In this document: positions 20,205 to 37,570 of the stretch, one piece after another | Layout of the letters: every line of letters begins with the position of its first letter | Numbering within the stretch: the first letter of the stretch is position 1 | From: Prosthecobacter sp. SYSU 5D2 | Lineage (GTDB): Bacteria > Verrucomicrobiota > Verrucomicrobiia > Verrucomicrobiales > Verrucomicrobiaceae | DNA length: 64,000 nucleotides | Reading direction: 5' to 3' | Assembly (NCBI RefSeq): GCF_039655865.1 | Contig: NZ_JBBYXL010000001.1 | Location: 186,001 to 250,000 of the forward strand | Translations under genes and position numbers: made by a program | Notes under the pieces: generated by a model | Databases searched by the model: none | Seen by the model: the letters and a program-made list of their open reading frames with translations, nothing else | Told to the model about the DNA's origin: nothing

Positions 20205-20258
20205 AATGTCCAAAAATAATGCATTGTCATCATTGGCTGCATTTATTTGTTGGACATT
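20205..20258. repeat. Long imperfect inverted repeat after pilB-like gene
   Basis: Left arm 20205-20223 (AATGTCCAAAAATAATGCA) pairs with the right arm 20238-20258 around a 14-base loop. Only two single-base bulges interrupt about 19 base pairs. There is no following T run, so it is not a standard intrinsic terminator. It may be an mRNA processing or stabilising hairpin, an attenuator between the second ATPase and the gspF-like gene, or the remains of a small mobile element. Confidence 0.7.
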
Positions 20259-20318
20259 CTCCCATCCGACCCGGTAATCTCAAAATCGTTCCAGAACCCC
20301 CGCAGCGCCCACTTTTCT

Positions 20319-21596
20319 ATGCCGAAGTTCCACTACATCGCCCTTGACCAAAACGGGCAAGAAGTCGCCGGTGAACTTGATGCCTCCACTGAAGCCGAGG
20401 CCATCAATCTCCTCCGCCAAAGCCAGCTTTATCCCACCCAGGTCGCCCAGGAGGGCAAAGGCGATGCGGCAGTCAAAAAACGCGCCAAGGCCACCACTTC
20501 TGCGCAAGGAAAAGGTAAAACCGCCAAAGCGGGAGCCAATTCGAAGATCAAGGCCAAGGTGCTGATGATCTTCACACGACAGCTTGCCACCCTCATTGAT
20601 TCAGGTCTGCCCCTGCTGCGCGGTCTGACCGTATTGGCCCGCCAGGAGCCCAATCCGATCATGAAGAGCACGGTGACCACCATTGCCGAAAACGTGCAGA
20701 CCGGCAGCACCTTCTCGGAGACACTTTCGCAATACCCGAAAATCTTTAACAAGCTTTACATCAACATGGTGAAGGCCGGTGAGTTGGGCGGGGTGCTGGA
20801 AATCGTCCTCAACCGTCTTGCCGAATATCAGGAGAAGGCCCAGAAGCTGAAGAACAAGGTCGTGGCGGCGATGGTTTACCCCATTATCGTCATGGTCATT
20901 GCCATTCTGATCATGGTCTTCCTCATGCTGGTCATCGTCCCCCGTTTCGAAAAAATCTTCGAAGACATGCTGGGATCCGCCGACAAGCTCCCCGGCCTGA
21001 CCAAGCTCGTCATTGGCTTCAGCCGCTGGATGCAGGGCAACTTCCTTTACCTCGTCATTGCCGGAGTCGTGATCACGGTAGCCTTTAGGCTCTATGCCTC
21101 CACGGTCAAAGGCCGTCGTGTCATTGACCAGCTCAAGCTTAAGATGCCGCTCTTTGGTGACGTCCAGCGCAAGACGGCCATCTCCCGTTTCAGCCGTACC
21201 CTCGGCACCCTCGTCACCTCCGGTGTTCCCATCCTTCAGGCCCTCAACATCACCCGTGAAACCGCCGGCAACGTCGTCATCTCTGACGCCATCACCAAGG
21301 TGCATGATGCCGTCAAAGAAGGTGAATCCATGGTGGCCCCGCTGGAGGCCAGCAACGTCTTCCCCCCCATGGTGATTTCCATGGTGGACGTTGGTGAAGA
21401 AACGGGCCAGCTCCCTGAGATGCTGCTCAAAATCGCCGATGTGTATGAGGACGAAGTGGACAACGCCGTTTCCGCCCTCACCTCCATGCTGGAGCCCCTC
21501 ATGATTGTGCTTCTTGCGGTGGTCGTCGGCGTGATCGTCATGGCCCTCTTCCTTCCGCTCATCGAGGTGATCAAAGGCCTCAGTGGCGGTGCATAG
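20319..21596 (+). CDS. PilC/GspF-family inner-membrane platform protein
   Basis: A 425-residue type II secretion system F family protein, the membrane platform that couples the assembly ATPase to pilin insertion. It starts with the typical KFHYIALDQNGQEVAGELDA segment. Two T2SSF domains follow, the first containing FTRQLATLIDSGLPLLRGL and the second ISRFSRTLGTLVTSGVPILQAL, with hydrophobic helices near residues 188-210, 240-260 and 390-415. I chose ATG 20319 because family homology begins at that Met; an upstream in-frame Met at 20247 would add 24 residues overlapping the inverted repeat. A lysine/alanine-rich linker (about 50-80) is unremarkable. Confidence 0.93.
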   Translation: MPKFHYIALDQNGQEVAGELDASTEAEAINLLRQSQLYPTQVAQEGKGDAAVKKRAKATTSAQGKGKTAKAGANSKIKAKVLMIFTRQLATLIDSGLPLLRGLTVLARQEPNPIMKSTVTTIAENVQTGSTFSETLSQYPKIFNKLYINMVKAGELGGVLEIVLNRLAEYQEKAQKLKNKVVAAMVYPIIVMVIAILIMVFLMLVIVPRFEKIFEDMLGSADKLPGLTKLVIGFSRWMQGNFLYLVIAGVVITVAFRLYASTVKGRRVIDQLKLKMPLFGDVQRKTAISRFSRTLGTLVTSGVPILQALNITRETAGNVVISDAITKVHDAVKEGESMVAPLEASNVFPPMVISMVDVGEETGQLPEMLLKIADVYEDEVDNAVSALTSMLEPLMIVLLAVVVGVIVMALFLPLIEVIKGLSGGA

Positions 21597-21621
21597 AAAT
21601 CCCTGCAATCCCCCCCACGCT

Positions 21622-22272
21622 ATGAAAAGTCAGTTCCGGAAGGCTTCCCGCCCAGGCTTCACCATTGTGGAGCTCCTCATTGTCATCACCATCATTGCCC
21701 TGCTCTTCGCTCTCACCGTCGGTGGATTCACCTTCGCCCAGAGATCCGCAGCCCGCAGCCGCACCACCGTGGCCATGAATGCCATGAAAAGTGCTCTTGA
21801 GCGCTACCGGAATGAATTTGGCGAATATCCTGCCCCTCAAAATCCGCAGGACAGCATCGCCATTGCAGACAAGACCTATGAAGTGGGCTCCGCCGCCATG
21901 CTTTACCAGGCTTTGAGCGGCGACGGTTATGACAACATCGTCATCGCCCAGGGTTCACCCTCCGCCGGAGAGCCCAATTCCAACGGCTCCCTGGAACCGG
22001 AAGAATCCAAAAACGTCATGCTCACCGACATGCCGAAGGAAATGTGGATTGAGCGGGATGGACGGTATTTCATGGCAGACGGTTTTGGCAAACCTTTCCA
22101 GTATGTCAAAGCCGTGCCCGCCGCCGGTGACCAGTCCCCGGTGACCATCAACTCCACCTATGACCTCTGGTCCTATGGCGAAGACGATGTGAACATCACC
22201 GCCCGTTCCGTGGACACCCTGACCCCTGGCCCGATCAAGGACGCCAGCCAGAAGTGGATCAAGAACTGGTGA
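21622..22272 (+). CDS. GspG-like type II secretion pseudopilin (intact)
   Basis: A 216-residue prepilin with a class III leader: a short basic N-terminus, the peptidase site RPG|FTIVELLIVI with Phe at +1 and Glu at +5, and a hydrophobic N-terminal helix. After the helix a KSALERYRNEFGEYPAPQNPQD segment resembles the GspG major pseudopilin core. ATG 21622 gives the correct leader; an in-frame Met at 21583 overlaps the gspF-like gene end. It should be processed by a prepilin peptidase, which is not in this window. It is followed by a hairpin terminator and by a same-length duplicate. Confidence 0.92.
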   Translation: MKSQFRKASRPGFTIVELLIVITIIALLFALTVGGFTFAQRSAARSRTTVAMNAMKSALERYRNEFGEYPAPQNPQDSIAIADKTYEVGSAAMLYQALSGDGYDNIVIAQGSPSAGEPNSNGSLEPEESKNVMLTDMPKEMWIERDGRYFMADGFGKPFQYVKAVPAAGDQSPVTINSTYDLWSYGEDDVNITARSVDTLTPGPIKDASQKWIKNW

Positions 22273-22278
22273 TTGTTT

Positions 22279-22310
22279 GAAGCCTCCTTCTGGAGGCTAC
22301 GTCATTTTCA
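22279..22310 (+). terminator. Hairpin after first pseudopilin
   Basis: A perfect 7-base-pair stem AGCCTCC (22281-22287) / GGAGGCT (22292-22298) with a 4-base loop, followed by a modestly T-rich GTCATTTT. The same element, slightly changed, follows the duplicate gene. Confidence 0.6.
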
Positions 22311-22383
22311 GACGGATTAAAGTCAGAGCATTGGCAGGAATCGAAATCGTAGCTGGCGGGACATAACTATCTCTACTCCCGCT

Positions 22384-23034
22384 ATGAAGGGTCACATCAA
22401 GAGAGCTGCCAGTCCGGGTGGGACCGTTCTCAAGCTTCTCGTCGTTGTCGCGGTCATTGCTCTGCTCTTCATATTCGGCTCTGGTGGTTGGATCGTCACG
22501 GGCACATCGGCAGAGCTTAGCCGCACCAGGGTTGCAATGAATGCCATGAAAAGCGCCCTTGAGGGCTACCACAATGAGTTTGGCGCATATCCAACCCCCA
22601 AAAATCCGCAGGACACCATCACAATTGATGGCAAAAGCTACCTGGTGGGTGCCGCCACCATGCTATACCAGGCACTCAGCGGCGACGGTTCTGACAACAT
22701 TCTGAATGCACCCGGTTCCCGGTCCGCCGGACAGGCCTCTTCAAATGGAAAACTGGAATCCGAGGAGGTTACAAACGTCAGGCTCGTTGACATGCCCAGG
22801 GAAATGTGGATGGAGCGCGACGGACGTTACTTCATGGTGGACGGTTTCGGCAGGCCCTTCCAATACGTCCAAGCCGAACCGCCCGTCGGCGGCAGTTCCC
22901 CACGGACCATCAATTCCACCCATGACCTCTGGTCGTACGGTGAAGACGATGTGAACATAACCGCCCGTTCGGTTGATACCCTCCCCCCTGGCCCCATCAA
23001 GGACGCCAGCCAGAAGTGGATCAAGAACTGGTGA
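22384..23034 (+). CDS. Diverged tandem duplicate of GspG-like pseudopilin, processing site altered
   Basis: A 216-residue protein, exactly as long as its neighbour and highly similar to it after about residue 45; the last 30 residues and the DNA just past the stop are almost identical. The leader has changed: where the intact copy has PG|FTIVE, this one has PG|GTVLK, so +1 Phe is now Gly and the nearly invariant +5 Glu is now Lys (GAG to AAG, a single transition). The helix remains hydrophobic. The reading frame is intact, so the gene may still be expressed as a membrane-anchored or minor pilin-like protein. In ordinary pilins +5 Glu is needed for assembly, so incorporation is doubtful. Confidence 0.85.
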   Translation: MKGHIKRAASPGGTVLKLLVVVAVIALLFIFGSGGWIVTGTSAELSRTRVAMNAMKSALEGYHNEFGAYPTPKNPQDTITIDGKSYLVGAATMLYQALSGDGSDNILNAPGSRSAGQASSNGKLESEEVTNVRLVDMPREMWMERDGRYFMVDGFGRPFQYVQAEPPVGGSSPRTINSTHDLWSYGEDDVNITARSVDTLPPGPIKDASQKWIKNW

Positions 23035-23957: not shown

Positions 23958-26051
23958 TCAGCCGTGCACCAGGGCGGCCTCCAGCCGGGTGATTTCCACG
24001 GGCTTCACCAGATGATGCGCAAAACCCGCGTCCAGCGCGCGTTGGGCATCCTCCTTCATGCCAAAGCCGCTGAGGACGATGGCATGGACTGCCTGTTTTT
24101 GTGAAACGTTCCGAAACACATCAATGCCATTGCCGTCCGGCAGGCCAAAATCCGTGACGAGGATGTCCAGGGCCGCTTCGGACGAGAGGCGGGCCGCTTC
24201 TTCCACACTGCCCGCCGTGTGCACCTCATGTCCGCGACGGCGCAGCAGACGTGCGAGAGTGTCCCGGGTATCCTGGTGGTCTTCCACGAGCAGGATGCGC
24301 CAGGTCTGGCGCTCCTTCATCTCCGGCGGTTGTCCCGCAACTTCACTCTTATCTCCGTCATCCTGGTTCCCTTCAGGCATCTGCATTGAGGAGGCATCCT
24401 GGACGGGAAGCTCAAGCCGGAAAGTGGAGCCCTGGTTAGGACCTCCGCTGCTGGCGCGCAGATGCCCATCATGGCGTTCCACAATGGCGCGGCTGATGGC
24501 CAGGCCCAAGCCCAGACCGCCGAACATCCGCGTGGTCTGCACGCTCTCCTGCTGGAAGGCATCGAAAATACGTCCCAGCATCTCAGGCTCGATGCCCACC
24601 CCCGTATCCTGGACCTCCAAGGCCAGGCAAGGCACCCCGCCGACGGTTTCCTGAGTGAGCCGGATGTCAATGCTACCGCCATCCGCCGGGGTAAACTTGA
24701 TGGCATTTTGAAGAAGGTTCCAGACGACCTGGGTCAGCCTTACGGCATCTCCGATGACCATGGCCTGTGCACCCGCACTGCGATAAGTGATTTTTGGCTG
24801 AACTGCCTGGGCGGAGCAGCACATTGCCACGACCTCCGTCACGATACGGTTCATGTCCACCGGGTCGTGGTTCACCTCCAGCTTGCCCTGGGTGATGCGG
24901 GTCAGGTCCAGCAGATCATTGATGAGGTGCGTCTCCAGCTTGACGTTGCGGGAGATCATTTCAAAATCCCGCCGCACATCCTCCGGCAGTGCCGGGTCCT
25001 GGCTGCGGTCTTCCACCACCGCCAGCACCGGCGTCAGCGGGGTGCGCAGTTCATGGCTCAGCATGGCCAGAAACTGGTCCTTGGCGGCACTGGCCCGGCG
25101 CAGTTCCTCGCGAGACCGGTTGAGCTCCTCCGTCTTGGCCTCCAGTTCCTCCACCAGTGCTGCGCGTGTTTCAGCAGCCTCCTTTGCCGCACGCTCGCGC
25201 AGGGCTTCCAGCTCCTTGTGCTTCAGCTCCTGCAGGATGCGGTTGTTTTCCTCGGCAAAAAACTTCCTTCTCAGCAAGGCCCGGATGCGGCCTTTGAGGA
25301 TGGAAAAGTCATTCGACTTGCCGACAAAATCGTCCGCCCCGGCATCCAGGGCTTTGGAGAGGTTGTCGGTGGATTCTGCCCCGGTCAGGAGGATGGAGAC
25401 CAGGGGGAACTGGTTCTTTTTGCGCCACTCGCTGACCTGGCGGCAGACCTCAAATCCGTCCACCTTGGGCATGATCAGATCAATGATCACCCCGTCGAAC
25501 CTGCCTGCCCGCAGCCGCTCCAGCCCCTCCTCCGGATCCAGCGCCGTCTCCACCTTGTAGCCCTCAGCCGCGAGCTCATGCTTCAGCTTTTCAAGAAAGA
25601 TGGCGCTGTCATCAATGGCCAGGAGATGAACTTCGCGGAAGGAATCCTGTGAACCCGCAATGATGCGGTCTTTGGCCTCGGACTTCTGAAGAAGGGTGCG
25701 CAGCCGCACAAGCAGCACTTCCGGGTTGGTGGATTTGGCGACGAAATCATCCGCACCGCTGTCCAGCCCCTGCACCTGGTGCGCCTCCTGGGAGGTCAGC
25801 ATCACAATGGGCAGGCTGCGCGAGTCCACATTCATGCGGATGCGGCGGCAGACCTCGTCTCCGCGGATGCCCGGCAGGTGATAATCCAGCAGAATCAGAT
25901 CGGGCTGGCAATCCCGCAGAACAGAAAAGGCCTTCTCAGCACTTGATACCCAGGTGACCTTCCATCCCTCCCCCTCCAGCAGGGCGGTCAGGCTGATGGC
26001 CTGGGTGGTGGAATCTTCCACCAGCATGAGATGGTAGGTCCGTTCATTCAT
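23958..26051 (-). CDS. Hybrid histidine kinase with REC-REC-HisKA-HATPase-REC architecture
   Basis: A 697-residue soluble protein without transmembrane helices. REC1 (about 5-120) has LILLDYHLPG and REC2 (about 142-265) has GVIIDLIMPKVDG. A coiled coil (about 265-335, rich in Glu and Ala) leads to the H box FLAMLSHELRTPLTP and HATPase motifs with LLQNAIKFTP, DTGVGIEPEMLGRIFDAF and GLGLGLAISR. A terminal REC3 (about 580-695) has ILVTDFGLPDGNG. The start overlaps the CheB stop by eight bases, so it belongs to the chemosensory operon. It stands where Wsp operons carry the diguanylate cyclase WspR and is presumably the output: CheA phosphorylates one or both N-terminal REC domains, which then gate the kinase. 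No GGDEF or DNA-binding domain is present. Confidence 0.92.
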   Translation of the reverse strand: MNERTYHLMLVEDSTTQAISLTALLEGEGWKVTWVSSAEKAFSVLRDCQPDLILLDYHLPGIRGDEVCRRIRMNVDSRSLPIVMLTSQEAHQVQGLDSGADDFVAKSTNPEVLLVRLRTLLQKSEAKDRIIAGSQDSFREVHLLAIDDSAIFLEKLKHELAAEGYKVETALDPEEGLERLRAGRFDGVIIDLIMPKVDGFEVCRQVSEWRKKNQFPLVSILLTGAESTDNLSKALDAGADDFVGKSNDFSILKGRIRALLRRKFFAEENNRILQELKHKELEALRERAAKEAAETRAALVEELEAKTEELNRSREELRRASAAKDQFLAMLSHELRTPLTPVLAVVEDRSQDPALPEDVRRDFEMISRNVKLETHLINDLLDLTRITQGKLEVNHDPVDMNRIVTEVVAMCCSAQAVQPKITYRSAGAQAMVIGDAVRLTQVVWNLLQNAIKFTPADGGSIDIRLTQETVGGVPCLALEVQDTGVGIEPEMLGRIFDAFQQESVQTTRMFGGLGLGLAISRAIVERHDGHLRASSGGPNQGSTFRLELPVQDASSMQMPEGNQDDGDKSEVAGQPPEMKERQTWRILLVEDHQDTRDTLARLLRRRGHEVHTAGSVEEAARLSSEAALDILVTDFGLPDGNGIDVFRNVSQKQAVHAIVLSGFGMKEDAQRALDAGFAHHLVKPVEITRLEAALVHG

Positions 26052-27123
26052 GGCTGGTTGCAGGACGGGGATTAAACAGAGTATTCAGGCGGGAGCTGAT
26101 CTCCCCCAAGGGAAGGACGGCACTGACAGCCCCCAGCTTGACGGCCGCAGCGGGCATGCCGTAAACGACCGCTGTGGATTCATGCTCAGCGACAGTATAG
26201 GCACCCGCCTGGAACATGTCACGCATGCCCAGCGCTCCATCTTCACCCATGCCCGTAAGCAGCACCGCTGCCGCTCCGCTCCCCAGGCTGGCAAGAGATT
26301 TGAACAACACTGTCCCTGACGGCTTCTGCGCATTGAAGGACGGTGTATCCAGGAGCTGCGCCTGAAACGGCTCAGCATAAATGAGATGCCTGTTGGCCGG
26401 GGCCACATACACCGTGCCAGGCTCCAGCGGCATGCAGTGCTGCGCCTCCTTCACCTTCAGGGCGGGCAGGACATCTCCCAGCCAGGAGACAAAACCACGA
26501 ACGAACCCCGGAGTGATGTGCTGGACCAGGAGGATGGGGGCGGGAAATTGAGGATCCAGTCCGTTCAGTAGCTGCACAATGGCATTCGGTCCGCCCGTGG
26601 AAGCGACCAGCCCAAGTACACTCGGGACACCATTTTTTCCAAACCGCGCGGTCGGCATCACCGGAGCCGAAACCGTCTCTTTGGGATTGGCAAAGGTCCG
26701 ATAACGCTGCCGGATGACCCTCACTTCACTCATGATGGTCAGCTTGGTGCACAGCTCGGTGGCCAGCTTGTCATAGTCATCATGCTTCAGGCCCACCGGC
26801 TTTTGCACCACGGCCAGCGCACCTGCGCGCAGGGCGTTCATGGAGATGTTCAACTCCTCATCCTGCACGTCTGAGGACACCACGACAATAGGAGTGGGAT
26901 GCTCATTCATGATCCGCTGCGTGGCCTCAAAGCCGTTCATCCCAGGCAGGCGGATATCCAGGGAAATGATGTCTGGGTTTACCTCTTCCAGGGTTTCCAG
27001 AGCTTCTTCCGCACTCCTCACATTCGCCACCACCACCAGCCGGGGATCACGGTTGATGATGTGCTCCAAGAACTCGCTGACCGTTCTCGAGTCCTCGACA
27101 ATCATGACCGTGACTTTCTTCAT
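26044..27123 (-). CDS. cheB: Chemotaxis response regulator methylesterase CheB
   Basis: A 359-residue CheB: a receiver domain (1-120) with phospho-acceptor Asp56 in IISLDIRLPGMNG, a linker, and the methylesterase domain with catalytic Ser175 (VASTGGPN), His202 (LVQHITPGF) and Asp295 (GMGEDGALG). It removes methyl groups from the receptor and thereby resets the array. In Wsp-type systems this protein (WspF) is the negative regulator of signalling. It is translated from the minus strand between CheA and the hybrid kinase. Confidence 0.96.
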   Translation of the reverse strand: MKKVTVMIVEDSRTVSEFLEHIINRDPRLVVVANVRSAEEALETLEEVNPDIISLDIRLPGMNGFEATQRIMNEHPTPIVVVSSDVQDEELNISMNALRAGALAVVQKPVGLKHDDYDKLATELCTKLTIMSEVRVIRQRYRTFANPKETVSAPVMPTARFGKNGVPSVLGLVASTGGPNAIVQLLNGLDPQFPAPILLVQHITPGFVRGFVSWLGDVLPALKVKEAQHCMPLEPGTVYVAPANRHLIYAEPFQAQLLDTPSFNAQKPSGTVLFKSLASLGSGAAAVLLTGMGEDGALGMRDMFQAGAYTVAEHESTAVVYGMPAAAVKLGAVSAVLPLGEISSRLNTLFNPRPATSHE

Positions 27124-27181
27124 GGATCGAGTGGGGCGGAGGACGATAATTTTTTAAGGGTAAAAGATGGATGGAACCGGA

Positions 27182-29227
27182 TCATACTAACTGCCTGACG
27201 ACAGCGAGCAACTCCTGGTGATCGAAGCGTTCTTTGACAATATACGCATCGGCCCCCAGGGCCAGACCGCGCTCCTGATCCTCCTGGCTGCTCAAAGAAG
27301 TGACCAGGATCAGCGGGATTTCCGCGAGTGCCGGCTGGCTTTTCATCGTGGCCAGGAGCTGGAAACCGTCCACATGCGGCATCTGCACGTCACTGACCAC
27401 CAGCGCCACCTCCGTGCTGTGCAGGATGGCCAGGGCCGCTCTGCCATCCTCCGCCGTGCGGACGTTATAGCCCGCAGTCTCCAAAATGCTTTTCTGCAAA
27501 GTGCGGGCCGTGAAGGAATCATCCGCCACGAGGATGGTGGAGCGCCTCACCTGCACAGGGGCGGTCTTTGTGTCCTCCTGCAGCGGCGTGGCCCGGCAGC
27601 GGTCTGCCAGCGTCTGGGGATTGAGCACGAGTACGACGGCCCCCTCCTCGGTGACGATGCCTCCGGAAAAATGCGGCGACAGGGAGGCCGGATAGGGCAG
27701 CGGGCGGATCAAAGCATGAATCTCCCCCACAAAGGCCTCCACATGCAGCGCCAGGGGCTTTTGCCCATGCAAGACAGCCACCTGCACACGCCCTTCTTCA
27801 TTGCGCAGGATGCGCGCCGTTTTTCCGGCCGCTTCCGCCGCCGTGGTGACCTGGATGGAGCTGCCCTCCCAGAAGATGATGCTGCGCCCTTCCGCCACAT
27901 GCACCTCATCCACGTGCAGGAGAGCCCTGATGTTATTGATGGGCAGGGCAAAGAGCTGCCCTGCCGACCGGAACAACAGCAGCCGCCGCGCGGAGATGCT
28001 CACGGGCACCCGCAGTTCCAGCTCACTCCCCTGCCCCGGCCGGGTGCTCATGCGCACATTCCCCTGGAATTGCACCACCCGTTCCCGCACGACGGATAGG
28101 CCCATGCCACGGCCAGACACATTGGTGACCTGCCGTGCCGTGGAGAGCCCGGCATGGAAAATGAGGTCCATCGCAGCCTCGTCCGTCTGCTGCTCAGCCT
28201 CTGCTGCGGAAAGGATCCCTGCCTGCAGAGCCTTGCTTTTGACCTGGGCGATGTCCACTCCCCGGCCGTCATCCCGGATGCTCAGGCGCAAAAAGTGACC
28301 GTCCATTTCCAAGTGCAGGCGTACGTCGCCCTTCTCCGGCTTGCCTGCGGACCGGCGCTGCGCCGGTGGCTCGATGCCGTGGGAAAGGGCGTTTCGCAGC
28401 GCATGCATCACCGGATCCTTCAGCGCCTGCAAAACCGCACGGTCAGCCTGGAGCTCGGTTCCGGTCATGGTGAAGCTGACCGGCTTGCCGGTCTCCCCCG
28501 CCAGATCCCGCATCATTTTGGGAAACCCTTCAAACACGCTGCTGATAGGCACCATGCAGATGCGGCTGACATTCTGCTGCAACTGGCCGCTGAGCACCCG
28601 CAGGCTGCGGCTGCCCCGCTGCTGTTTGTCGCGGAGCTCCTGAAGATGCTTCCCTGCTTCACGCACATGAAACCGCAAGTCCCCCGGCTCATAGCGGTCC
28701 TGGTGCAGCAGCCGGCGGAGCTGCTCCAACTTTGCCGAAAGCAGGTCCAGTTCACGCCCCAGGCTTTCCTGGCCGGTCGCCTCCATCAGCAGCAGGCCGG
28801 AGGTTTGCAGCAGCTCTCCCAAAAGCACGGATTCGATCCGCAGTGTCTCCTGCACGACCGCCGGCGGAGCTTTTGCTTCTTCAGGAGTGTCAGAGACCTG
28901 CTCCATCTCCAAGGCCAGGGCCATGGCGTCTTCCGCAGCATCCGCATGCGCTGTCAACTTTTCCCTGACATCCGGATTTAATCCCGCCCGGCCTTTGGTC
29001 AGGTCTGACAGGATGCTCTCCATCTCATGGGCGATGGATTCCACCTCCTCGAGGTCGCAGACCCGCGCACTTCCTTTCATGCTGTGCGCCATGCGGAAGG
29101 CATCATCCAGCATCGCGGTGGAGACCGCCGGCCAGGCCGCAAGCATGGCCCGGATGACCTCCATCTGCTCCTTGAATTCCGTCTGAAAGGCGGCCAGCAC
29201 CCGCTGATGGAGGTCAGAGTCGGACAT
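27182..29227 (-). CDS. cheA: Hybrid chemotaxis kinase CheA-REC (WspE-like)
   Basis: A 681-residue kinase with an N-terminal HPt domain (His48 in RMAHSMKGSARV), a dimerisation helix pair, a HATPase domain with N box HALRNALSHGIE, DDGRGVDIAQ and SGRGMGLSVV, a CheW-like regulatory domain, and a C-terminal receiver with VVSDVQMPHVDGFQ. I see no recognisable P2 docking domain. The fused receiver is typical of alternative chemosensory pathways such as Wsp and Frz. It should pass phosphate from His48 to its own receiver, to CheB and to the hybrid kinase. Confidence 0.95.
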   Translation of the reverse strand: MSDSDLHQRVLAAFQTEFKEQMEVIRAMLAAWPAVSTAMLDDAFRMAHSMKGSARVCDLEEVESIAHEMESILSDLTKGRAGLNPDVREKLTAHADAAEDAMALALEMEQVSDTPEEAKAPPAVVQETLRIESVLLGELLQTSGLLLMEATGQESLGRELDLLSAKLEQLRRLLHQDRYEPGDLRFHVREAGKHLQELRDKQQRGSRSLRVLSGQLQQNVSRICMVPISSVFEGFPKMMRDLAGETGKPVSFTMTGTELQADRAVLQALKDPVMHALRNALSHGIEPPAQRRSAGKPEKGDVRLHLEMDGHFLRLSIRDDGRGVDIAQVKSKALQAGILSAAEAEQQTDEAAMDLIFHAGLSTARQVTNVSGRGMGLSVVRERVVQFQGNVRMSTRPGQGSELELRVPVSISARRLLLFRSAGQLFALPINNIRALLHVDEVHVAEGRSIIFWEGSSIQVTTAAEAAGKTARILRNEEGRVQVAVLHGQKPLALHVEAFVGEIHALIRPLPYPASLSPHFSGGIVTEEGAVVLVLNPQTLADRCRATPLQEDTKTAPVQVRRSTILVADDSFTARTLQKSILETAGYNVRTAEDGRAALAILHSTEVALVVSDVQMPHVDGFQLLATMKSQPALAEIPLILVTSLSSQEDQERGLALGADAYIVKERFDHQELLAVVRQLV

Positions 29228-29284
29228 GAAACTCTAAAGTGCGCGGTGTGGGTGGCCGGGGTTAAAGGTAAACAGGCAGGACAA

Positions 29285-30910
29285 TCAGACCTGATAGCGG
29301 CTGACGGCAGTGCGGAGCTGCACGCTCAGGTCGTTGAGGTTGGCCAGGGCCTTTTCCAGCTGGGAGGTGCCGAGGGCCGTTTGCTCTGTTGCCTGGCGGA
29401 TGTCCCGCATGCCCTGGGTGACCTGGTCAAAACCGATCTGCTGCTGGCTGGTGGATGCGATGATCTGCTGGAAGGCATGCACACTTTCCACCGTCGTGCG
29501 GGTCATCTGGTGGATGGTCTGCTCGGTGATCTCCGCCTGCTGTTTGCCGGAGTCGGAGCGCTTCACGGCCTCCTCCGTCATCATTACGGTGCCATTGATA
29601 CCGCGCTGGATTTCCCCCAGGATGGTCCCTACCTGCACCGTGCTCTCTTTGGCACGCTGGGCCAGGTTGCGCATCTCTCCGGCCACCACGGCAAAACGGC
29701 TGCCCTGCTCCCCGGCAGAGGCCGCCTCAATGCTGGCATTAAGCGCCAGCAGGTTGGACTGCTCGGCGATCTCATTGACCGTGCTGACGATCTCCCCGAT
29801 GGCCTGGGTACGCTCGCTCAGCGCCACGATCTTGGTAGCCACATCCTCCACCTGCTGGCGGATGCCTTCCATCAGGCGGCTCGTGGTTTTCACCGCGTTG
29901 ATGCCGGATTCACCGGCAGCCGAGGTCGCCTCCGCAGAGGCGGCCACCTGCTTGGCCTTCTCGGTAATCTCGTTTCCGGACTGGCTGATCTCCTGCATGG
30001 TCGCGGAAATTTCCTGCACCGTCGCCGCCTGCTCCTTGGTGCTGGAGGCCTGCTGCTGGGTGGAGGCCAGGATCTCCGCCGCTGCGGAATTGATGTTGCC
30101 GGTGACGCCGAGGATCTGCCCGCTGAGGTCCTTCAAGTTGTCCAGCATGTTGTTAAACGCGCTGCCCAGCTTGCCGATCTCGTCACGGCTTCTGACGTTC
30201 ATTTTTTCAATCCTCAGGTTCCCCGTGGCAATGCTGTCCGCAGACTCCGCCACCCTTTGCAGGGGCAGGCTGATGCTGCGTGCGATGAACCAGCTGAACA
30301 GAAAGCTCAGTACGCCCGCCACGATGGCGATCACCCAGCCCATCCGCATAAGCTCTTCCACCTGGCCTTCCATGTGGCGGGTGTACCCCCTGGCGATCTC
30401 CATGCCGTAATTCTGAATCTCTGTCTCTTTGACCAGAAGGCTGGCCAGGACCTCTTCATAATCCGGAGAATCCACAGGCGTGGCCAGCAACCGGTCAATC
30501 TCCTGTACGGATACATTGATGAGCTGGGTCTGGGCTTGCAGCAACCCCCGGAGATGATCCGATGGAACAGGTTCCATTTCCACTGTCCCCGTCTCATTCA
30601 GGCGCGCGAGAATGGGGCCCCCATAAGTCAGGGCCTTCTGGCCATCCAGCCACACTTTGCGGACATAGTCCAGCTTCTCACGGGTCATCTTTCCCTGGGT
30701 GATCAGAAGAGCTGTCGCGAAGTGCTGCTGCTGGAGCATGCGCTGGCGGCCCACCTTTTCCACCACTTCAATGTTCCCCTGCTGGTCCTTTGATGTCGAA
30801 ATGGTCAGAGACAAAACCACGGCCAGAATGACCAGGAAAAACAGCGGAATGAAAGTAAGTTTGGCGCCGACACTGAGGTCGTTCCATGAGGATCTGGGTA
30901 GCGGGGACAT
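29285..30910 (-). CDS. Methyl-accepting chemotaxis protein with PilJ-like sensor domain
   Basis: A 541-residue receptor: TM1 (17-39), a periplasmic four-helix domain whose start (about 47-62, VVEKVGRQRMLQQQ) matches the GRQRMLSQ motif of the PilJ/NarX-type sensor domain, TM2 (190-210), HAMP (211-265) and a long signalling coiled coil. The hairpin tip is intact, including NLLALNASIEAASAGEQG and FAVVAGEMRNLAQ. No CheR-docking pentapeptide is present at the C-terminus, consistent with a TPR-type CheR. The signal is unknown; PilJ-type domains are linked to surface sensing and type IV pili, relevant because a pilus/secretion cluster lies upstream at 16846. Confidence 0.94.
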   Translation of the reverse strand: MSPLPRSSWNDLSVGAKLTFIPLFFLVILAVVLSLTISTSKDQQGNIEVVEKVGRQRMLQQQHFATALLITQGKMTREKLDYVRKVWLDGQKALTYGGPILARLNETGTVEMEPVPSDHLRGLLQAQTQLINVSVQEIDRLLATPVDSPDYEEVLASLLVKETEIQNYGMEIARGYTRHMEGQVEELMRMGWVIAIVAGVLSFLFSWFIARSISLPLQRVAESADSIATGNLRIEKMNVRSRDEIGKLGSAFNNMLDNLKDLSGQILGVTGNINSAAAEILASTQQQASSTKEQAATVQEISATMQEISQSGNEITEKAKQVAASAEATSAAGESGINAVKTTSRLMEGIRQQVEDVATKIVALSERTQAIGEIVSTVNEIAEQSNLLALNASIEAASAGEQGSRFAVVAGEMRNLAQRAKESTVQVGTILGEIQRGINGTVMMTEEAVKRSDSGKQQAEITEQTIHQMTRTTVESVHAFQQIIASTSQQQIGFDQVTQGMRDIRQATEQTALGTSQLEKALANLNDLSVQLRTAVSRYQV

Positions 30911-30973
30911 GAAGTGGAAAAGTTAAAATAAGGATTGGAGAACTGAACCTGAAAAAGAACACTGGAACAAGTG

Positions 30974-31549
30974 CTAAGCCTGCTTTTCCCAGCTTTGCAG
31001 AAGGGCGCGGACATCCAGCAGCACGGCTGGGCTGCGCTCCGGGCTGAAGAAAAACAACCGGTCACTCTGCCAGGCGTCCTCCGGCAGTTCCACCAGATCC
31101 AATACCTGGGTGCAACCGATGGCCACCTTTAACTGCGGATGCCGGAGCAGCACCGCCTGGGAAAACTCACTGGCAACGGCCGCAAAACCCTCATTCAAAA
31201 GCGGCGCAGGATTCACCAGGTTCACTAGATGGTTATGCACATTCACCACGCCCAGGAGAAGCTCATGCGCATCCGGTACCGGCGTGTAGCTTTGAGTCAA
31301 ATTCACCACCTCCTGAATCCATTGGATCTCGATTCCCGCCATGTGCCCGCCCGCTTCAAGAAGCAGCACCGTCCGGAGTGCAGACTGGCTCGTGGTCAGC
31401 TTTTCACGCCGCGCCAGCAGGTCAGCCCGGGCAGCAAGCGTGCGCTCGACAACCTCCGGTGTCGGCTCAAAAGCGGATTTCAAAAGCAGGGAGCTTTCAT
31501 CCAGTTGATGATGAACTGCCTGCCAGTCAATTTTGCGTTGGTCACTCAT
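30974..31549 (-). CDS. cheW: CheW-like coupling protein (second)
   Basis: A 191-residue adaptor that links the receptor to CheA. The CheW fold is seen from about residue 55: RTVLLLEAGGHMAGIEIQW, IQEVVNLTQSYTPVPDA, LLGVVNVHNHLVNLVNPAPL. An N-terminal extension of about 50 residues contains helices that might bind elsewhere in the array. Its ATG overlaps the CheR stop by four bases. By position it corresponds to WspD or WspB of the Wsp pathway. Confidence 0.9.
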   Translation of the reverse strand: MSDQRKIDWQAVHHQLDESSLLLKSAFEPTPEVVERTLAARADLLARREKLTTSQSALRTVLLLEAGGHMAGIEIQWIQEVVNLTQSYTPVPDAHELLLGVVNVHNHLVNLVNPAPLLNEGFAAVASEFSQAVLLRHPQLKVAIGCTQVLDLVELPEDAWQSDRLFFFSPERSPAVLLDVRALLQSWEKQA

Positions 31550-32976
31550 GCGCGGATGGATGTTGCACAGGCACTTTCAGGAACGGCCAGCAGAGAGCGA
31601 AATTCCCTCACGGTCAAGCCCTGGCCCAAGGGCACAGGATCCTCCGGATGATGCGGTGCCAGGAGATTCAGTGTATTTTCAAAATGGCGGCGCGCGTTGC
31701 GTCCCTGCCTCTCCTGCACCAGCCCCATGTAGTAATGCGCCAGCGCCAGATCGCGCGCCAGGTACAGGCACCGATGAATGGACTTCTCCGCAGCCGTCCA
31801 CTCGCCGAGCTGAAAAAGGATCATGCCATGATAATAATGCGCCCCTGCGGAGAGCGGGGACTGCAAAAGCACCCGGTCACAGGCCTTGAGGGCCGCATGC
31901 AGGTCCCCCGCATCTGCATGCCGCGTGATCTCCGCCAGCTCTCCCTCCCCTGCCGCGGGCTGCACCGGCGCAGCCGGCAGGGGCGGTGCTTTAGGCAGAG
32001 GAAGCTCCGCACTCCTGAGCCGGACTTCCGGCGCAGGCGGTTCAGGCTGCCTCTGCCATTCAGCCGACGGAAACCACACAGGCAAAACAGGTGGAGTCCA
32101 GGCCACCTCATCTGGCGAAACCGGCCGCTGATAAAGCACCGCCCCCGGTGTATTCACCGTGCGGAACATACGAAAGGTGTCCGTATGCGGCTCCGCGTGC
32201 CCCACGGCCAGCCAGCCGCCAGGCGTCAGCGTATCATAGAACTGCCTGGCCAGCTTTTGAATGGACGGCTGGTCAAAGTAGATCATCACATTCCGGCAGA
32301 TGATCAGGTCAAACCCGGAGAGGGCTCGGGTTTCATCTGGAAACGGGTCCGTGGCCAGATTGTGGTTTTGAAAAGTCACCCCTTCCCGGCAGGGGTCCGT
32401 CAGCCGCCATTTCGCCCCCTGTTTGGTAAAGCATCGGTGCAAAACATGCGGCGGCGTGCCCCGTAGCGCCCAGGGATCGTAGGCCCCGGCCTCGGCAATG
32501 CGCAGGAACTTGCGGTTGATGTCCGTCCCCAGGATCTGGATGGACCAGTTTCTGAACTGCTCTCCCAGCATCTCACGCAGCAGGATGGCCAGCGAATACG
32601 GCTCCGCCCCGATGGAGCAGCCCGCGCTCCAGATGCGCAGACTGCGCGAGCCCGCCTTCCGCCGCAGGATGTCTGGAAAAACCGCATCCCGCAGCGCAGT
32701 GAACATCTCCGCATGGCGGAAGAAAAAAGTCTCCCCAATCGTAAGCTGCTCCACCAGCGCATCCTGAGCCTCAGCATCCGTTTTCAGCCGTTTTAACAGC
32801 GCCCCTCCCCCCGGCAGCGGTCCTTCTGGGCCAAACACCCGCTCCAAGGCCAGCAGCAGATCCACATCCCTTTCCTTGTAATAGGACAGCCCCGTCCGGC
32901 CAATGATCCAGTCCTTCAACAGGAAAAACTGAGGATCACTCAGCAGCTCATGAGGTTTGTCCACAGCGATTCTCAC
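31546..32976 (-). CDS. cheR: CheR methyltransferase with C-terminal TPR repeats (WspC-like)
   Basis: Receptor glutamate methyltransferase. The all-alpha N-terminal domain (GLSYYKERDVDLLLALERV) is followed by the SAM-binding domain with IGETFFFRHAEMF, RIWSAGCSIGAEPYSLAILL and LIICRNVMIYF. A proline-rich linker then leads to TPR repeats (about 380-455, e.g. GAHYYHGMILFQLGEW). The start is uncertain: the only good candidate after the upstream CheW stop is GTG at 32976 (476 residues), while a reading that begins at 33120 would lie inside CheW. No strong Shine-Dalgarno was seen. TPR-type CheR proteins such as WspC do not need a receptor pentapeptide. Confidence 0.9.
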   Translation of the reverse strand: MRIAVDKPHELLSDPQFFLLKDWIIGRTGLSYYKERDVDLLLALERVFGPEGPLPGGGALLKRLKTDAEAQDALVEQLTIGETFFFRHAEMFTALRDAVFPDILRRKAGSRSLRIWSAGCSIGAEPYSLAILLREMLGEQFRNWSIQILGTDINRKFLRIAEAGAYDPWALRGTPPHVLHRCFTKQGAKWRLTDPCREGVTFQNHNLATDPFPDETRALSGFDLIICRNVMIYFDQPSIQKLARQFYDTLTPGGWLAVGHAEPHTDTFRMFRTVNTPGAVLYQRPVSPDEVAWTPPVLPVWFPSAEWQRQPEPPAPEVRLRSAELPLPKAPPLPAAPVQPAAGEGELAEITRHADAGDLHAALKACDRVLLQSPLSAGAHYYHGMILFQLGEWTAAEKSIHRCLYLARDLALAHYYMGLVQERQGRNARRHFENTLNLLAPHHPEDPVPLGQGLTVREFRSLLAVPESACATSIRA

Positions 32977-32983
32977 AGCAATG

Positions 32984-33481
32984 TCAGGCGGTTTCCATCT
33001 CCAGCATGGCCATCCGGCTTGCGGCCCGCTGCCGCAGCTCCGCCAGCCGCCTGATTTCACTGGCCAGCAGCAGTTTGTCAGGCTCCAGCAGGATGACCGG
33101 AGGCGTGTGCTGCAGCACACCGAAGGCGCAGTTGTTCAGCACATGATCCTCCGGAAGCTCTGCAACGTCCCTTGTGCGGTAGGAAAGGGGTTCCATCTGC
33201 GCCCCCGCCAGCCAGGCGACCTGCGTGCCGCCCAGCCTGGCAATGATGATCCGGTCGCTCAGTTTCATCGCAGGAGAAGACGGCTCAGCTCCCCCATCCA
33301 GCAGTTTTTCCAGCCGGATGACGGGAATCAGCCCGCCATGAAAAGTGACAAAGCCCCGCACCAGTGGCGGTATCTCCGGCGGAGTCACCAGCCGCACGCT
33401 TGGGATGACCTCCTGCACATGGCTGGCATCCAGCCCCAGGCTGACGCCACCGATAGAAAATGTGAGCACTGTTCTTAGCAT
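32984..33481 (-). CDS. cheW: CheW-like coupling protein (first of operon)
   Basis: A 165-residue CheW-fold protein beginning directly with the domain: VLTFSIGGVSLGLDASHVQEV, GFVTFHGGLIPVIRLEKLLDG. It opens the minus-strand chemosensory operon. Two CheW proteins flank CheR, the same gene order as wspB-wspC-wspD. The promoter should lie in 33482-33612, where nothing stronger than a short CCGG-type hairpin was seen. Confidence 0.9.
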   Translation of the reverse strand: MLRTVLTFSIGGVSLGLDASHVQEVIPSVRLVTPPEIPPLVRGFVTFHGGLIPVIRLEKLLDGGAEPSSPAMKLSDRIIIARLGGTQVAWLAGAQMEPLSYRTRDVAELPEDHVLNNCAFGVLQHTPPVILLEPDKLLLASEIRRLAELRQRAASRMAMLEMETA

Positions 33482-33844: not shown

Positions 33845-34738
33845 TCAATGAATGACCGGGGTTTTTTCGCGGTCCTCTGACAATGGCAGTGGCTCCGGGG
33901 AGATGCGCCGCTGGCCGCGCCTGGTCGCCAGAAGGCCATGCTTGGGTGCAAACACGAAGGCTAACGTGAAAAACAGCGCCTGCGTGAGCACAATGCAGGC
34001 CCCGGTGGAGCCATCAATGAAGAAGCTGATATAGACCCCCAGGCAGCTGGCCAGGACGGATGAGACGCCCGCGATGATGAGCATGTGGTCAAAGCGGTCC
34101 GTCAGCAGCCGGGCCGTGCAACCAGGCGTGACCAGCATGGCAACGACGAGGATGATGCCGACCGCCTGGATGGAGGCAACGATGGTGGCGGAGAGCAGAG
34201 CCAGGAATAGATAATAGGTCAGGGCGGTGTTCTGGCCAATGGCGCGGGCATGGGAGGGGTCAAAGCAGAACAGCAGCAGATCCCGGCGCAGGAGAAGGGT
34301 GACGGCGAGGGTGACGAGCGCGGTGAAGGCCGTCTGGATCATGGCGCTCCGCTCGATGCCCAGGATATTGCCGAACAAAATGTGCGTGAGATGCAGGTCG
34401 GACTGCACTTTGGAGTGCATGACCAGCCCCAGGGCAAAGAGGCCGGTGAACACAATGCCCATCACCGTGTCCTCCTTGATGCGGCTGTTGGATTTGATCC
34501 AGCCGGTAGCGGTGGCGCACAGCAGCCCGGAAACGAAAGCCCCCGCCGCGAGAGGAAAGCCGACGATATATGCCAGCACCACGCCCGGCAGAACTGCATG
34601 GGAGATGGCGTCGCCCATCAGCGACCAGCCTTTGAGCACCAGGTAGCAGGAGAGCACCGCGCAGACCGCCCCGACGAGGGCACCGACCAGCAGCGCCTCG
34701 TTCATGAAGCTGTATTGAAAAGGGTCCAGCCAGTTCAT
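33845..34738 (-). CDS. mntD: Metal ABC transporter permease (MntD-like)
   Basis: A 297-residue integral membrane permease of the zinc/manganese ABC-3 family with about eight hydrophobic helices. Family motifs include GWSLMGDAISHAVLPGVVLAYIVG and DPSHARAIGQN. ATG 34738 overlaps the stop of the upstream permease by four bases; an in-frame Met at 34897 lies within that gene. It is last in the manganese operon. The short basic and polar tail (about 270-297) is cytoplasmic. Confidence 0.93.
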   Translation of the reverse strand: MNWLDPFQYSFMNEALLVGALVGAVCAVLSCYLVLKGWSLMGDAISHAVLPGVVLAYIVGFPLAAGAFVSGLLCATATGWIKSNSRIKEDTVMGIVFTGLFALGLVMHSKVQSDLHLTHILFGNILGIERSAMIQTAFTALVTLAVTLLLRRDLLLFCFDPSHARAIGQNTALTYYLFLALLSATIVASIQAVGIILVVAMLVTPGCTARLLTDRFDHMLIIAGVSSVLASCLGVYISFFIDGSTGACIVLTQALFFTLAFVFAPKHGLLATRRGQRRISPEPLPLSEDREKTPVIH

Positions 34739-35583
34739 GCGGCAGTGGCTTGGTGGCGTTGGGAACGGGCGGCCATGAGCCCGTGCTTGGGGGCGAGGAC
34801 GAGGGCCAGGAGAAAGATGATAGTTTGCAAAACGACAATGCAACCGCCGGTGGAGCCATTGAAGTAGTAGCTGATGTAAGCGCCGGTCACGCCGCAAAAA
34901 ACACCCAGGCCGGTGGCGATGCCCAGCATGCGGCCAAAGCGGTCCGTGAGCAGATAAGCCGTGGCACCGGGTGTGACCAGCATGGCCACGACAAGACAGG
35001 CACCCACAGTTTGCAGCGCAGCGACCGCCGTGGCCGAGAGCAGGGCAAGGAGCAGCACATTCAGAAATCGCGTGTTCAGGCCGATGCTGCGGGCGTGGGT
35101 TTCATCAAAGCAGTATAACAACAAGTCTTTCCATTTCATCCCCAGCACCAGCATGGAGATGGCGGAGATGATGACGACTTGAACAATGTCCGGATCCGAG
35201 ATGGCCAGGATGTTGCCAAAGATGATGGTCTTCAGGCTGATGTTGCTCTCATACAGCGTCAGCAACAAAAGCCCGGCGGCAAAGAAGGTGGTGAAAACCA
35301 CCCCAATAACCGCATCCTCCCGCAGCCGTGAATTCGCCTTCACCCAACCCATGCCGAGGGCTGCGAGAATGCCCGCGATAAATGCGCCGACGGAAAAAGG
35401 CAGCCCAAGCATCCAGGCCACTGACACACCGGGGACGACGGCATGGGAAAGCGCATCCCCCATGAGCGACCAGCCCTTCAGTGTGATGAAGCAGGACAAA
35501 AAGGCACACACGCCGCCGATGAGGCCGCTGATGAGGATGGCCTTCACCATGTACTCGTATTCGAAGGGAGTTAGAAGGGACAT
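34735..35583 (-). CDS. mntC: Metal ABC transporter permease (MntC-like)
   Basis: A 282-residue ABC-3 family permease, paralogous to the next gene: GWSLMGDALSHAVVPGVSVAWMLG and DETHARSIGLN. Together the two probably form a heterodimeric channel, as MntC/MntD do in Bacillus subtilis. ATG 35583 is preceded by a GG-rich region and begins the family homology; an in-frame Met at 35745 would be encoded by the repeat element upstream and adds only repeat-derived, Cys-rich residues. The repeat at 35590-35757 separates it from the ATPase gene. Confidence 0.93.
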   Translation of the reverse strand: MSLLTPFEYEYMVKAILISGLIGGVCAFLSCFITLKGWSLMGDALSHAVVPGVSVAWMLGLPFSVGAFIAGILAALGMGWVKANSRLREDAVIGVVFTTFFAAGLLLLTLYESNISLKTIIFGNILAISDPDIVQVVIISAISMLVLGMKWKDLLLYCFDETHARSIGLNTRFLNVLLLALLSATAVAALQTVGACLVVAMLVTPGATAYLLTDRFGRMLGIATGLGVFCGVTGAYISYYFNGSTGGCIVVLQTIIFLLALVLAPKHGLMAARSQRHQATAA

Positions 35584-35589
35584 GGGCAC

Positions 35590-35757
35590 CCCCTTCTTTG
35601 AAATCCGAATGACGAATTCCGAATGACGAATGATCCCGCAAGGCGGGAACGAATGATTCCAAATAGCAGGAATGAATGCATGCCGGGCGCCCATGCAGGG
35701 ATTCTGACATTCGTCATTCGACATTCGACATTCGTCATTCGGCATTCCTCATTCATT
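35590..35757. repeat. Inverted array of degenerate CGAATGACGAAT / ATTCGTCATTCG repeats
   Basis: The left half (35598-35660) reads as copies of CGAATGACGAAT around a small CCCGCAAGGCGGG hairpin, and the right half (35705-35757) as several copies of the reverse complement ATTCGTCATTCG and ATTCGACATTCG. The halves could fold into one large stem of about 50 bases. The array sits between the ATPase and permease genes of one operon and just overlaps the ATPase stop. No coding role was seen. Confidence 0.75.
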
Positions 35758-36661
35758 CCCCCACCTCCCTGGCGCGTTCTTTGACCAGGGCTTCCCTGCC
35801 CTGGCGGTCGGTGTATTCCAGATGGCCGTCCTTGCCAAAGACCAGCGGGCGCTCGTCATCGGTGAGGAGCTTCACGGTGCGCCCGTCGTGCTCCTGGATG
35901 GTGGACTGCTCAAAGTGGAACTGGCGCAGCACGCCGCCGAAGGCGTGAGTCAGGTTCTGTTCCGTAAAGACCTCCTCCGTGGGGCCATGGGCGAGCACGG
36001 TGCGGTTGATGAGCACCACATGATCACAAAACTCGGGCACGCTGCCCAGGTTATGCGTGGAGACGAGCATGATGTGCCCCTCTTCCCGCAGGGAGCGGAG
36101 GAGCTCGATGATCGCTGTTTCCGTCTGCACATCCACGCCGGTAAAGGGCTCATCCAGCAGCATGATGCGGCCCTTCTGCGCCAGGGCACGGGCCAGGAAA
36201 ACGCGCTTCTTCTGCCCGCCGGACAGCTCGCCGATCTGGCGTTCTTTAAACTCCGTCATGCCCACCCGCTTCAGGGATTCCAGGGCCACTCGCTTGTCCT
36301 CCGCACGCGGGATGCGCAGAAAATTCATGTGGCCATAGCGGCCCATCATCACGACATCCCAAACGCTGACAGGAAAGCTCCAGTCCACCTCCTCGCTCTG
36401 CGGCACATAGGCCACCAGCTTGCTGCGGCGCGCAGCCAGGGCGGTGCCACCGGCGATTTTGACCTGGCCTTTCACCGGTTTCAGGAAGCCCATGATGGAC
36501 TTGAACAGCGTGCTTTTGCCGCTGCCGTTCATGCCCACCAGCGCACAAATGGTCCCTGCCTGGAGATCAAAGGTGGCATCCCTCAGCGCCGTGTGGCCAT
36601 TGGCATAGGCCACCGTGACATCGGTGACTTGCAGAGAGAGCGGCGGGGAGTCTTGGAGCAT
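35753..36661 (-). CDS. mntB: Metal ABC transporter ATP-binding protein (MntB-like)
   Basis: A 302-residue ATPase with Walker [10 protein letters not shown] (43-51), Q loop ([10 protein letters not shown]), signature LSGGQ (146-150) and Walker B RIMLLDEP (Asp170, Glu171). A C-terminal extension of about 60 residues (from about 240) is longer than in most ZnuC/MntB proteins; its role is unknown. It follows the binding-protein gene by nine bases. It supplies energy for manganese or iron import across the cytoplasmic membrane. Confidence 0.94.
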
Positions 36662-36670
36662 GGAGTGGGG

Positions 36671-37570
36671 TCAGGGAGCCGAGAATGCCTTCACAATGGT
36701 GTCAGCATTGTATTGCAGCAATTTCAGATACGTGGGAGCCGGGCCATCTGCGCTGGTGAGTGAGTCCACATACAGCACGCCGCCGAAGCGGGCACCGGTT
36801 TCTTTGGCCACCTGCTGCATGGCCTTGTCGCTGATGGTGCTTTCTGAAAAGACCACAGGGATGCGGTTGGCCTTGACGGTATCCACCACTTTTTGCACTT
36901 GCTGGGGCGTGCCTTCTTCATCGGCATTGATTGGCCAGAGGTACAGTTCTTTCATGCTATAATTACGGGTGAGATAGGAGAAGGCTCCTTCGCAGCTTAC
37001 GAGCCAACGTTGCTCTTCCGGTATGCTCTCCAACGCTTTCCTCACGGGTTCATCCACCGCGCGGAGTTTTTCCGTATAGGCGGCTGCATTGGCGTTATAC
37101 GTGGCCTCATTCTCGGGGTCCAGTTTCACCAGCGCCTGGCGGATGTTTTCCACATAGAGGATGGCATTCGCCGGGGCCATCCATGAATGCGGATTCGGCT
37201 TGCCGGAATACGGTCCCTCGCCGATTCCGACAGGCTCAATGCCTTCCGTCAGCACCACGCCGGGCACGTCCTTGACCTGCTGGAGAAATTTCTCAAACCA
37301 GCGCTCCAGGCCCATTCCATTCCACAATACCAGGTCCGCTTTTTGCGCCCGCACCAGGTCCTGCGGCGTCGGTTCGTAATCGTGGATTTCAGCCCCCGGC
37401 TTGGTGATGGACTCCACGATGGCGGCATCCCCAGCGACGTTTTGGGCGATGTCCTGGATGATAGTGAAGGTGGTGAGGATGCGTTTTTTACCGTCGGCAG
37501 ATGGCTTGGCCGAAGGGCCGCAGGCGACCAGAAAACCAGCCAGGAGAAGGAGAAAATGATTTCGTTTCAT
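36671..37570 (-). CDS. mntA: Manganese-type ABC transporter substrate-binding lipoprotein
   Basis: A 299-residue cluster A-I binding protein with lipobox LAGFLVAC (Cys17). The predicted metal ligands are His63 (EIHDYEP), His128 (NPHSWM), Glu194 (SCEGAFSYL) and Asp269 (LYVDSL). Glu in the third position, as in PsaA/MntC, points to manganese or iron; zinc binders such as ZnuA normally have His there, plus a His-rich loop that is absent here. It lies directly behind the outer-membrane gene (10-base gap) and before the ATPase. Confidence 0.92.
   Translation of the reverse strand: MKRNHFLLLLAGFLVACGPSAKPSADGKKRILTTFTIIQDIAQNVAGDAAIVESITKPGAEIHDYEPTPQDLVRAQKADLVLWNGMGLERWFEKFLQQVKDVPGVVLTEGIEPVGIGEGPYSGKPNPHSWMAPANAILYVENIRQALVKLDPENEATYNANAAAYTEKLRAVDEPVRKALESIPEEQRWLVSCEGAFSYLTRNYSMKELYLWPINADEEGTPQQVQKVVDTVKANRIPVVFSESTISDKAMQQVAKETGARFGGVLYVDSLTSADGPAPTYLKLLQYNADTIVKAFSAP

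Follow-up and report, generated by a model that had tools for sequence, protein, structure and literature searches.

The window, a stretch of 64,000 nucleotides from Prosthecobacter sp. SYSU 5D2, carries on its minus strand (33481 to 23958) a seven-gene chemosensory operon that ends in a hybrid histidine kinase (HK) with three receiver (REC) domains. This cluster is probably a chemosensory pathway of the alternative cellular function (ACF) type, working like the Che3 system of Rhodospirillum centenum. It looks like a variant of the CheA3-CheS3 two-kinase relay and not like a form of the Wsp pathway. Judged from the sequence, three features are new in comparison with CheS3: a HisKA core, two N-terminal receivers that both appear intact, and a fused third receiver. 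No other chemosensory system was found in this genome, which has no detectable GGDEF or FliM.

Organisation of the operon

Open reading frames (ORFs) and Pfam matches give the order CheW, CheR-TPR, CheW, MCP, CheA-REC, CheB and REC-REC-HisKA-HATPase-REC, all on the minus strand. The first gene (32984..33481) encodes a CheW-like coupling protein of 165 amino acids (PF01584, E 3.1e-13) and the third (30974..31549) another of 191 amino acids (PF01584, E 4.4e-12), overlapping cheR by 4 bases. Between them lies the CheR methyltransferase with C-terminal TPR (31546..32976; PF01739, E 6.9e-48; TPR_16, E 3.7e-5), whose TPR models, TPR_16 included, have significant E-values yet stay below Pfam's own cut-offs. 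The ORF tool placed the cheR start at 33120, inside cheW in another frame. Since the orthologues have 471-488 amino acids, a GTG at about 32976 is the probable start.

Next come the chemoreceptor (MCP; 29285..30910, 541 amino acids, HAMP and MCPsignal), the CheA-REC hybrid kinase (27182..29227, 681 amino acids, with Hpt, HATPase, CheW and REC) and the CheB methylesterase with REC (26044..27123, 359 amino acids; PF01339, E 2.2e-51). The last gene (23958..26051) encodes a kinase of 697 amino acids, in which Pfam marks three Response_reg stretches, HisKA and HATPase_c, arranged as REC1-REC2-helix-HisKA-HATPase-REC3. This gene content and domain architecture had been described in a first-pass annotation of the sequence, together with a final gene that has a REC-REC-kinase-REC layout instead of GGDEF and overlaps cheB by eight bases. 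ORFs and Pfam bear out these points, the overlap being at 26044-26051. The ORF list holds no separate single-domain CheY3-type gene between 23958 and 33481, and promoter and terminator scans of the locus gave no decisive signal.

A CheR fused to TPR and a multidomain response regulator in the cluster, both recognised here by Pfam, are two marks of ACF clusters of the CheR-TPR type (PMC3447774). A third is a role apart from flagellar taxis; here the observation is that FliM has no match in the genome.

Gene order and trees place the cluster outside Wsp

The first-pass annotation had assigned the operon to the Wsp pathway and read its gene order as that of Wsp. Only the gene content agrees. Four Wsp-type loci were compared (Burkholderia L078 and L079, Cupriavidus L080 and Novosphingobium L084), and in all of them the MCP gene precedes cheR, cheA and cheB, whereas it is the fourth gene in the window. 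The output differs as well: Wsp uses WspR (REC-GGDEF), and L080 and L084 end in REC-GGDEF, while the window cluster has no such protein and has the REC-REC-kinase-REC protein instead. The Burkholderia Wsp H-system (WspH/WspHRR; PMC8552884, PMC4324302) is closer in this respect, being likewise a chemosensory cluster with a REC-kinase in place of the diguanylate cyclase. However, L078 and L079 begin with the kinase gene, 5' of the MCP gene, and the B. cenocepacia L079 kinase, taken as WspH by its position, has one REC and HATPase with no C-terminal REC (Pfam). The window is unlike both loci.

Identity was compared over a core of CheR, the cytoplasmic part of the MCP, CheA and CheB. The window core shares 29-30% identity with the four Wsp-type rows. 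Its identity to seven alphaproteobacterial rows that have the same gene order as the window is higher, at 35-43%. For other verrucomicrobial clusters the values are 43% (L070), 37% (L071), 33% (L072 and L074), 30% (L075) and 29% (L073).

In a concatenated tree of CheR, MCP, CheA and CheB (23 rows, 1888 columns), the window falls in a 14-row clade with 100/100 support, together with Azospirillum (three rows), Indioceanicola, Methylobacterium, Pseudoroseomonas, L070 and L071; the core proteins of the Burkholderia H-system belong to a different clade. Quick single-gene trees give the same split of 13 versus 6 rows in four out of four cases (SH-aLRT 100), the long or odd rows L071, L072, L074 and L083 having been dropped from them after the concatenated tree was seen. 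Forcing six Verrucomicrobiaceae and three Burkholderia/Cupriavidus rows together cost 1080 log-likelihood units (p-AU 7.81e-6 in the approximately unbiased, AU, test). Membership in Wsp was therefore rejected by gene order, output domain, core-protein trees and the AU test. In a published synteny survey, Wsp was confined to beta- and gammaproteobacteria (PMC8552884).

Kinship with alphaproteobacterial clusters and probable kinship with Che3

In two Azospirillum records the annotation itself gives the order cheW-cheR-cheW-mcp-cheA.REC-cheB, with CheA labelled “response regulator”, and comparison recovered this order in Indioceanicola, Methylobacterium and Pseudoroseomonas. The second CheW of the Indioceanicola cluster was undetected by comparison. 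Plasmid clusters of Azospirillum (L066, L067, L081), Methylobacterium bullatum (L069) and Pseudoroseomonas (L082) share the window's order from cheW to cheB. In L069 and L082 a REC-REC-HK follows cheB, as in the window, but its REC2 is degenerate; in the Azospirillum clusters a short response regulator and a separate kinase take its place. After the REC-REC-HK, L082 (14229-16112) and L069 (17176-19041) encode one more hybrid kinase, which contains PAS, HisKA, HATPase and two RECs, including a C-terminal one, so each of these clusters has three kinases counting CheA. The CheB frame of Pseudoroseomonas cervicalis L082 (11425-12485) consists of two overlapping ORFs (288 and 185 amino acids) that are absent from the gene table of the record, possibly through a frameshift or a sequencing error.

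The last gene of the Indioceanicola cluster (Azospirillaceae) stands in the same position and encodes REC-REC-PAS-HWE, the architecture of CheS3. Its REC2 has an alanine at the phospho-aspartate column, as reported for A191 of CheS3.

According to biochemical and genetic work on R. centenum published in 2013 (PMC3868531), CheS3 is a REC-REC-PAS-HWE kinase whose REC2 has no phospho-aspartate (A191). CheA3 phosphorylates REC1 of CheS3, as seen with CheA3 D663A protein, and CheY3 is phosphorylated by CheS3, not by CheA3. The cheS3 gene is epistatic to cheA3, CheA3 restrains the second kinase, and the CheS3 kinase is active and needed; the REC of CheA3 was proposed as a phosphate sink. The window and Che3 have in common an MCP, two CheW, CheR, CheB and CheA-REC, along with a second kinase opening with two receivers. 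REC1 of the window kinase is intact, like that of CheS3, while its REC2 is intact, unlike that of CheS3.

Receivers and core of the last kinase

The alignment shows the key residues of all three receivers: E12-D13-D56-T86-K106 in REC1, D147-D148-D191-T223-K245 in REC2 and E590-D591-D634-S661-K683 in REC3. The kinase core has H333 and the N- and G-box residues, and every kinase motif checked is intact. The core is HisKA, and no Pfam match to a PAS domain was found in this protein. From these residues, the expected phosphorylation sites would be D56, D191, H333 and D634. REC3 and kinase residues are identical in six of six family orthologues, and those of REC1 and REC2 are invariant across the same six.

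For the wider comparison of receivers, ten rows were aligned, with L072 represented by its second and third receivers. Nine rows contain REC1, and it is intact in each of them (for L072, the receiver aligned there is its second). REC2 is intact in the six verrucomicrobial rows and degenerate in all three alphaproteobacterial REC-REC kinases, which have lost at least one of the five key residues. The remaining row comes from an Azospirillum response regulator; its REC2 residues are kept, and it has no aligned REC1.

An AlphaFold model of the full-length kinase has a single helix (249-336) joining REC2 to DHp, with a mean pLDDT of 65.8. Its pTM of 0.30 means low confidence, and the model was excluded from any reading of domain contacts. 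Among solved structures, PleD is the best sequence match for the REC pair; the receivers of PleD function in regulated dimerisation.

Distribution of the cluster

A near-full-length match to the last kinase is present in 6 of 96 related genomes, its own included: 3/48 in the genus, 3/11 in the rest of the family and 0/37 in the rest of the order. Many of these genomes are drafts (completeness 52-100%), so some of the absences may be gaps. All five other kinase-bearing genomes have the seven genes in identical order, which makes 6/96 with its own, and the arrangement is thus not due to chance.

Verrucomicrobium sp. BvORR106 also carries the cluster. A first search of genome contigs returned no match; the later profile search with the alignment gave 20 rows, with BvORR034 and BvORR106 as the two true relatives. 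Of the others, L028 is by eye a single-REC protein and 17 match weakly, over parts of the first receiver.

Of 387 genomes from across the phylum, 47 pass 1e-25 with a REC-REC profile, eight of them above 200 bits and the other 39 at 115 bits or less. Three of the eight are distant, and in all three the kinase adjoins cheB, cheA, mcp and cheR. L070 encodes a REC-REC-HK, L071 a REC-REC-HK-REC, and L072 three RECs and then HK; CheW was found by comparison in L070 only. L070 also has a free REC downstream (6126-6572). Its reported matches were to REC1-2 (33 bits), CheA (30) and the whole kinase (30), with none to REC3. That REC3 is a captured CheY3 is a guess.

Genome setting

In the genome (5.87 Mb, 99.98% complete) the sole MCP match is the receptor of the operon, and CheW domain matches are confined to the cluster. 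The genome has no match to FliM and none to GGDEF. The first-pass annotation had named, as a finding that would count against it, homologous clusters that always hold a separate GGDEF gene and leave the kinase unlinked. What we found is different: the kinase is linked in all six cluster-bearing genomes, and five of them have no GGDEF match, the sixth (G053) having two. A Wsp-style diguanylate cyclase output is therefore disfavoured in those five. We rejected the absence of GGDEF as a trait specific to the cluster, since 81 of the 96 related genomes have no match either.

Hpt matches in the genome are two, CheA's own and one on contig C2, Hpt domains being easily missed by search. The C2 domain looks like part of another hybrid kinase, because its frame also holds, by eye, a kinase ATPase domain and a receiver.

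The chemoreceptor

The signalling hairpin of the receptor has 140 residues on either side of the tip, which would place it in the 40-heptad class. The periplasmic part is predicted to be helical and contains G-R-Q-R, with G54 and R57 invariant in six of six orthologues. This fits G-x-x-R, the nitrate-binding motif of NarX, NarQ and McpN (PMC8199190).

Pfam reported PilJ in one of the six receptor orthologues (E 6.6e-4). Foldseek with the sensor part ranked NarQ first to fourth, with a best E of 7.1e-3 and no match passing 1e-3, and a sequence comparison of the sensor with solved structures gave a single chance-like match. On structural re-alignment, unrelated four-helix bundles reached Z 15.0, against 13.4 for PilJ and 12.7 for NarQ. 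As the Foldseek matches lie above 1e-3 and unrelated bundles outscore both proteins, the assignment draws mainly on G-x-x-R, which hints weakly at a sensor of NarX/PilJ type. Nitrate as the ligand is speculation.

Neighbouring genes

A ZnuA/ABC-3 type metal transporter operon lies at 33845-37570 on the minus strand (Pfam), with a counterpart in L012 (G018) at 15335-18897. This is the only clear shared flank among the seven family loci compared. The two operons are on opposite sides of the chemosensory operon, so one of them has moved. In four of the compared family loci the only match, of about 79 bits, was at the level of an ATPase.

Type II secretion or type IV pilus-like genes occupy 18542-23034 on the plus strand (Pfam: a T2SSE ATPase with MshEN, T2SSF and a prepilin-type gene with N_methyl). 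A tandem second copy within this region is very similar by eye and has no Pfam match. About 0.9 kb, including a UbiE-type gene, separates the end of these genes from the chemosensory operon, and they have no match in the compared stretches of seven related loci.

The region 42988-50076 is low in GC (44-51% per 2 kb at 42-50 kb). By Pfam it contains an AAA_31 protein, which reads like a Wzc-type polysaccharide kinase, and a Poly_export protein; there is also a 576-amino-acid ORF with no Pfam match, and a transposase-like ORF (rve, HTH_21) at 49453-50076. The region may be an exopolysaccharide locus that was acquired, and it is a candidate output of the operon.

Discussion

In the pathway that we propose, a chemoreceptor, perhaps of PilJ/NarX type, would control CheA-REC and would be adapted by CheR-TPR and CheB. 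The REC of CheA probably drains phosphate. CheA would phosphorylate REC1 of the last protein and perhaps REC2 too, unlike in CheS3. The phosphorylation state of the REC pair would travel along the helix to HisKA and switch the second kinase, most likely off by analogy with CheS3. Output may then pass through the fused REC3, through a response regulator encoded elsewhere, or through both. All phosphotransfer steps, and likewise the ligand and whether the second kinase is switched on or off, are inferred from anatomy and precedent.

Gating of a second kinase by CheA phosphate had been suggested in the first-pass annotation, and it stands as the likely mechanism, given the anatomy of the cluster and the CheA3-CheS3 precedent in R. 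centenum. The accompanying claim, that the resulting phosphorelay is a layered output not described before, falls. Such outputs are known from CheA3-CheS3 (PMC3868531), from the published REC-kinase Wsp H-systems (PMC8552884, PMC4324302) and from a 2012 survey of CheR-TPR clusters (PMC3447774). In that survey, around 40% of the response regulators of CheR-TPR clusters carry a kinase module, and REC phosphorylation is said to perhaps modulate the attached kinase. Its Figure 2 has Chlamydiae/Verrucomicrobia among the taxa analysed for CheR-TPR, and a relative of the window cluster may already be in its supplement (Table S2); the parts of its account of ACF clusters available to us do not name the REC-REC-HK-REC form. 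A literature search on verrucomicrobial chemosensory systems, mostly outside subscription journals, found no paper plainly about this cluster.

Several points weigh against a Che3-like reading. The core of the last kinase is HisKA without PAS, unlike the PAS-HWE of CheS3, and CheY3 is a separate protein in R. centenum whereas the cluster has none and its third receiver is fused C-terminally. The kinship to Che3 would run through Indioceanicola as a stand-in and through published domain descriptions. In the tree, L072, with its three receivers and kinase, falls outside the 14-row clade on a long branch, and Niveispirillum L083 pairs with the verrucomicrobial L074. L071, L072, L074 and L068 carry a long-branch warning, and 10 of the 23 rows have an odd letter make-up, three of them from the window's own family. 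The alphaproteobacterial and Wsp rows come from 11 of the 40 listed matches to the window CheA, a choice that favours close kin, and the Wsp-type comparators contain no Pseudomonas Wsp sequence. Finally, CheB and the REC of CheA itself could be the sole targets of CheA.

A bolder proposal, which we hold as tentative, is that the last protein acts as a single-chain integrator. Its two receivers, both live and each with a different donor (CheA for one, and for the other a further kinase or the protein's own HisKA), would gate a kinase with a CheY3-like receiver fused in cis. The sole array would then report through one multi-receiver kinase and no CheY, in a cell with no detectable cyclic di-GMP (c-di-GMP) synthesis or flagella.

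It is unlikely that the last kinase is instead a linear phosphorelay from His333 to REC3, Hpt and a DNA-binding regulator, receiving no phosphate from CheA and using REC1 and REC2 as sinks or dimerisation domains. HK-REC is the usual phosphorelay layout, and the REC3 residues are intact in six of six orthologues. However, one of the two Hpt domains found is CheA's own and the other seemingly belongs to another hybrid kinase, allowing for those that a search may miss. The kinase is also linked with cheA in six of six genomes, and three distant verrucomicrobial clusters have REC-REC kinases next to their cheA and cheB; together these argue for a shared circuit.

Somewhat less likely still, CheA may drive the REC pair as an output or localisation switch, the kinase domain acting mainly as a phosphatase or a brake on REC3. 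The match of the pair to PleD suits this idea, but all the kinase motifs checked are intact and the CheS3 kinase is active and needed (PMC3868531).

A Wsp H-type surface sensor, with WspR replaced by a kinase as in Burkholderia, is very improbable: the component list is the same (MCP, CheW, CheR-TPR, CheA-REC, CheB and REC-kinase) and the H-system appears independent of c-di-GMP (PMC8552884), but its gene order, the single-REC kinase of L079 encoded before the MCP gene, the lower core identity, the rejected Wsp clade and the limits of Wsp in the synteny survey all speak against it.

Under the Che3-like reading, the intact REC2 and the fused REC3 pose a question that cannot be answered in CheS3, whose REC2 has no phospho-aspartate. 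With one receptor, one CheA and no detectable GGDEF or FliM, this genome is a clean test bed. The reading would tie the published CheA3-CheS3 circuit to a cluster type that occurs from Alphaproteobacteria to Verrucomicrobiota, and signalling from CheA to a second kinase may therefore be a common output of ACF arrays.

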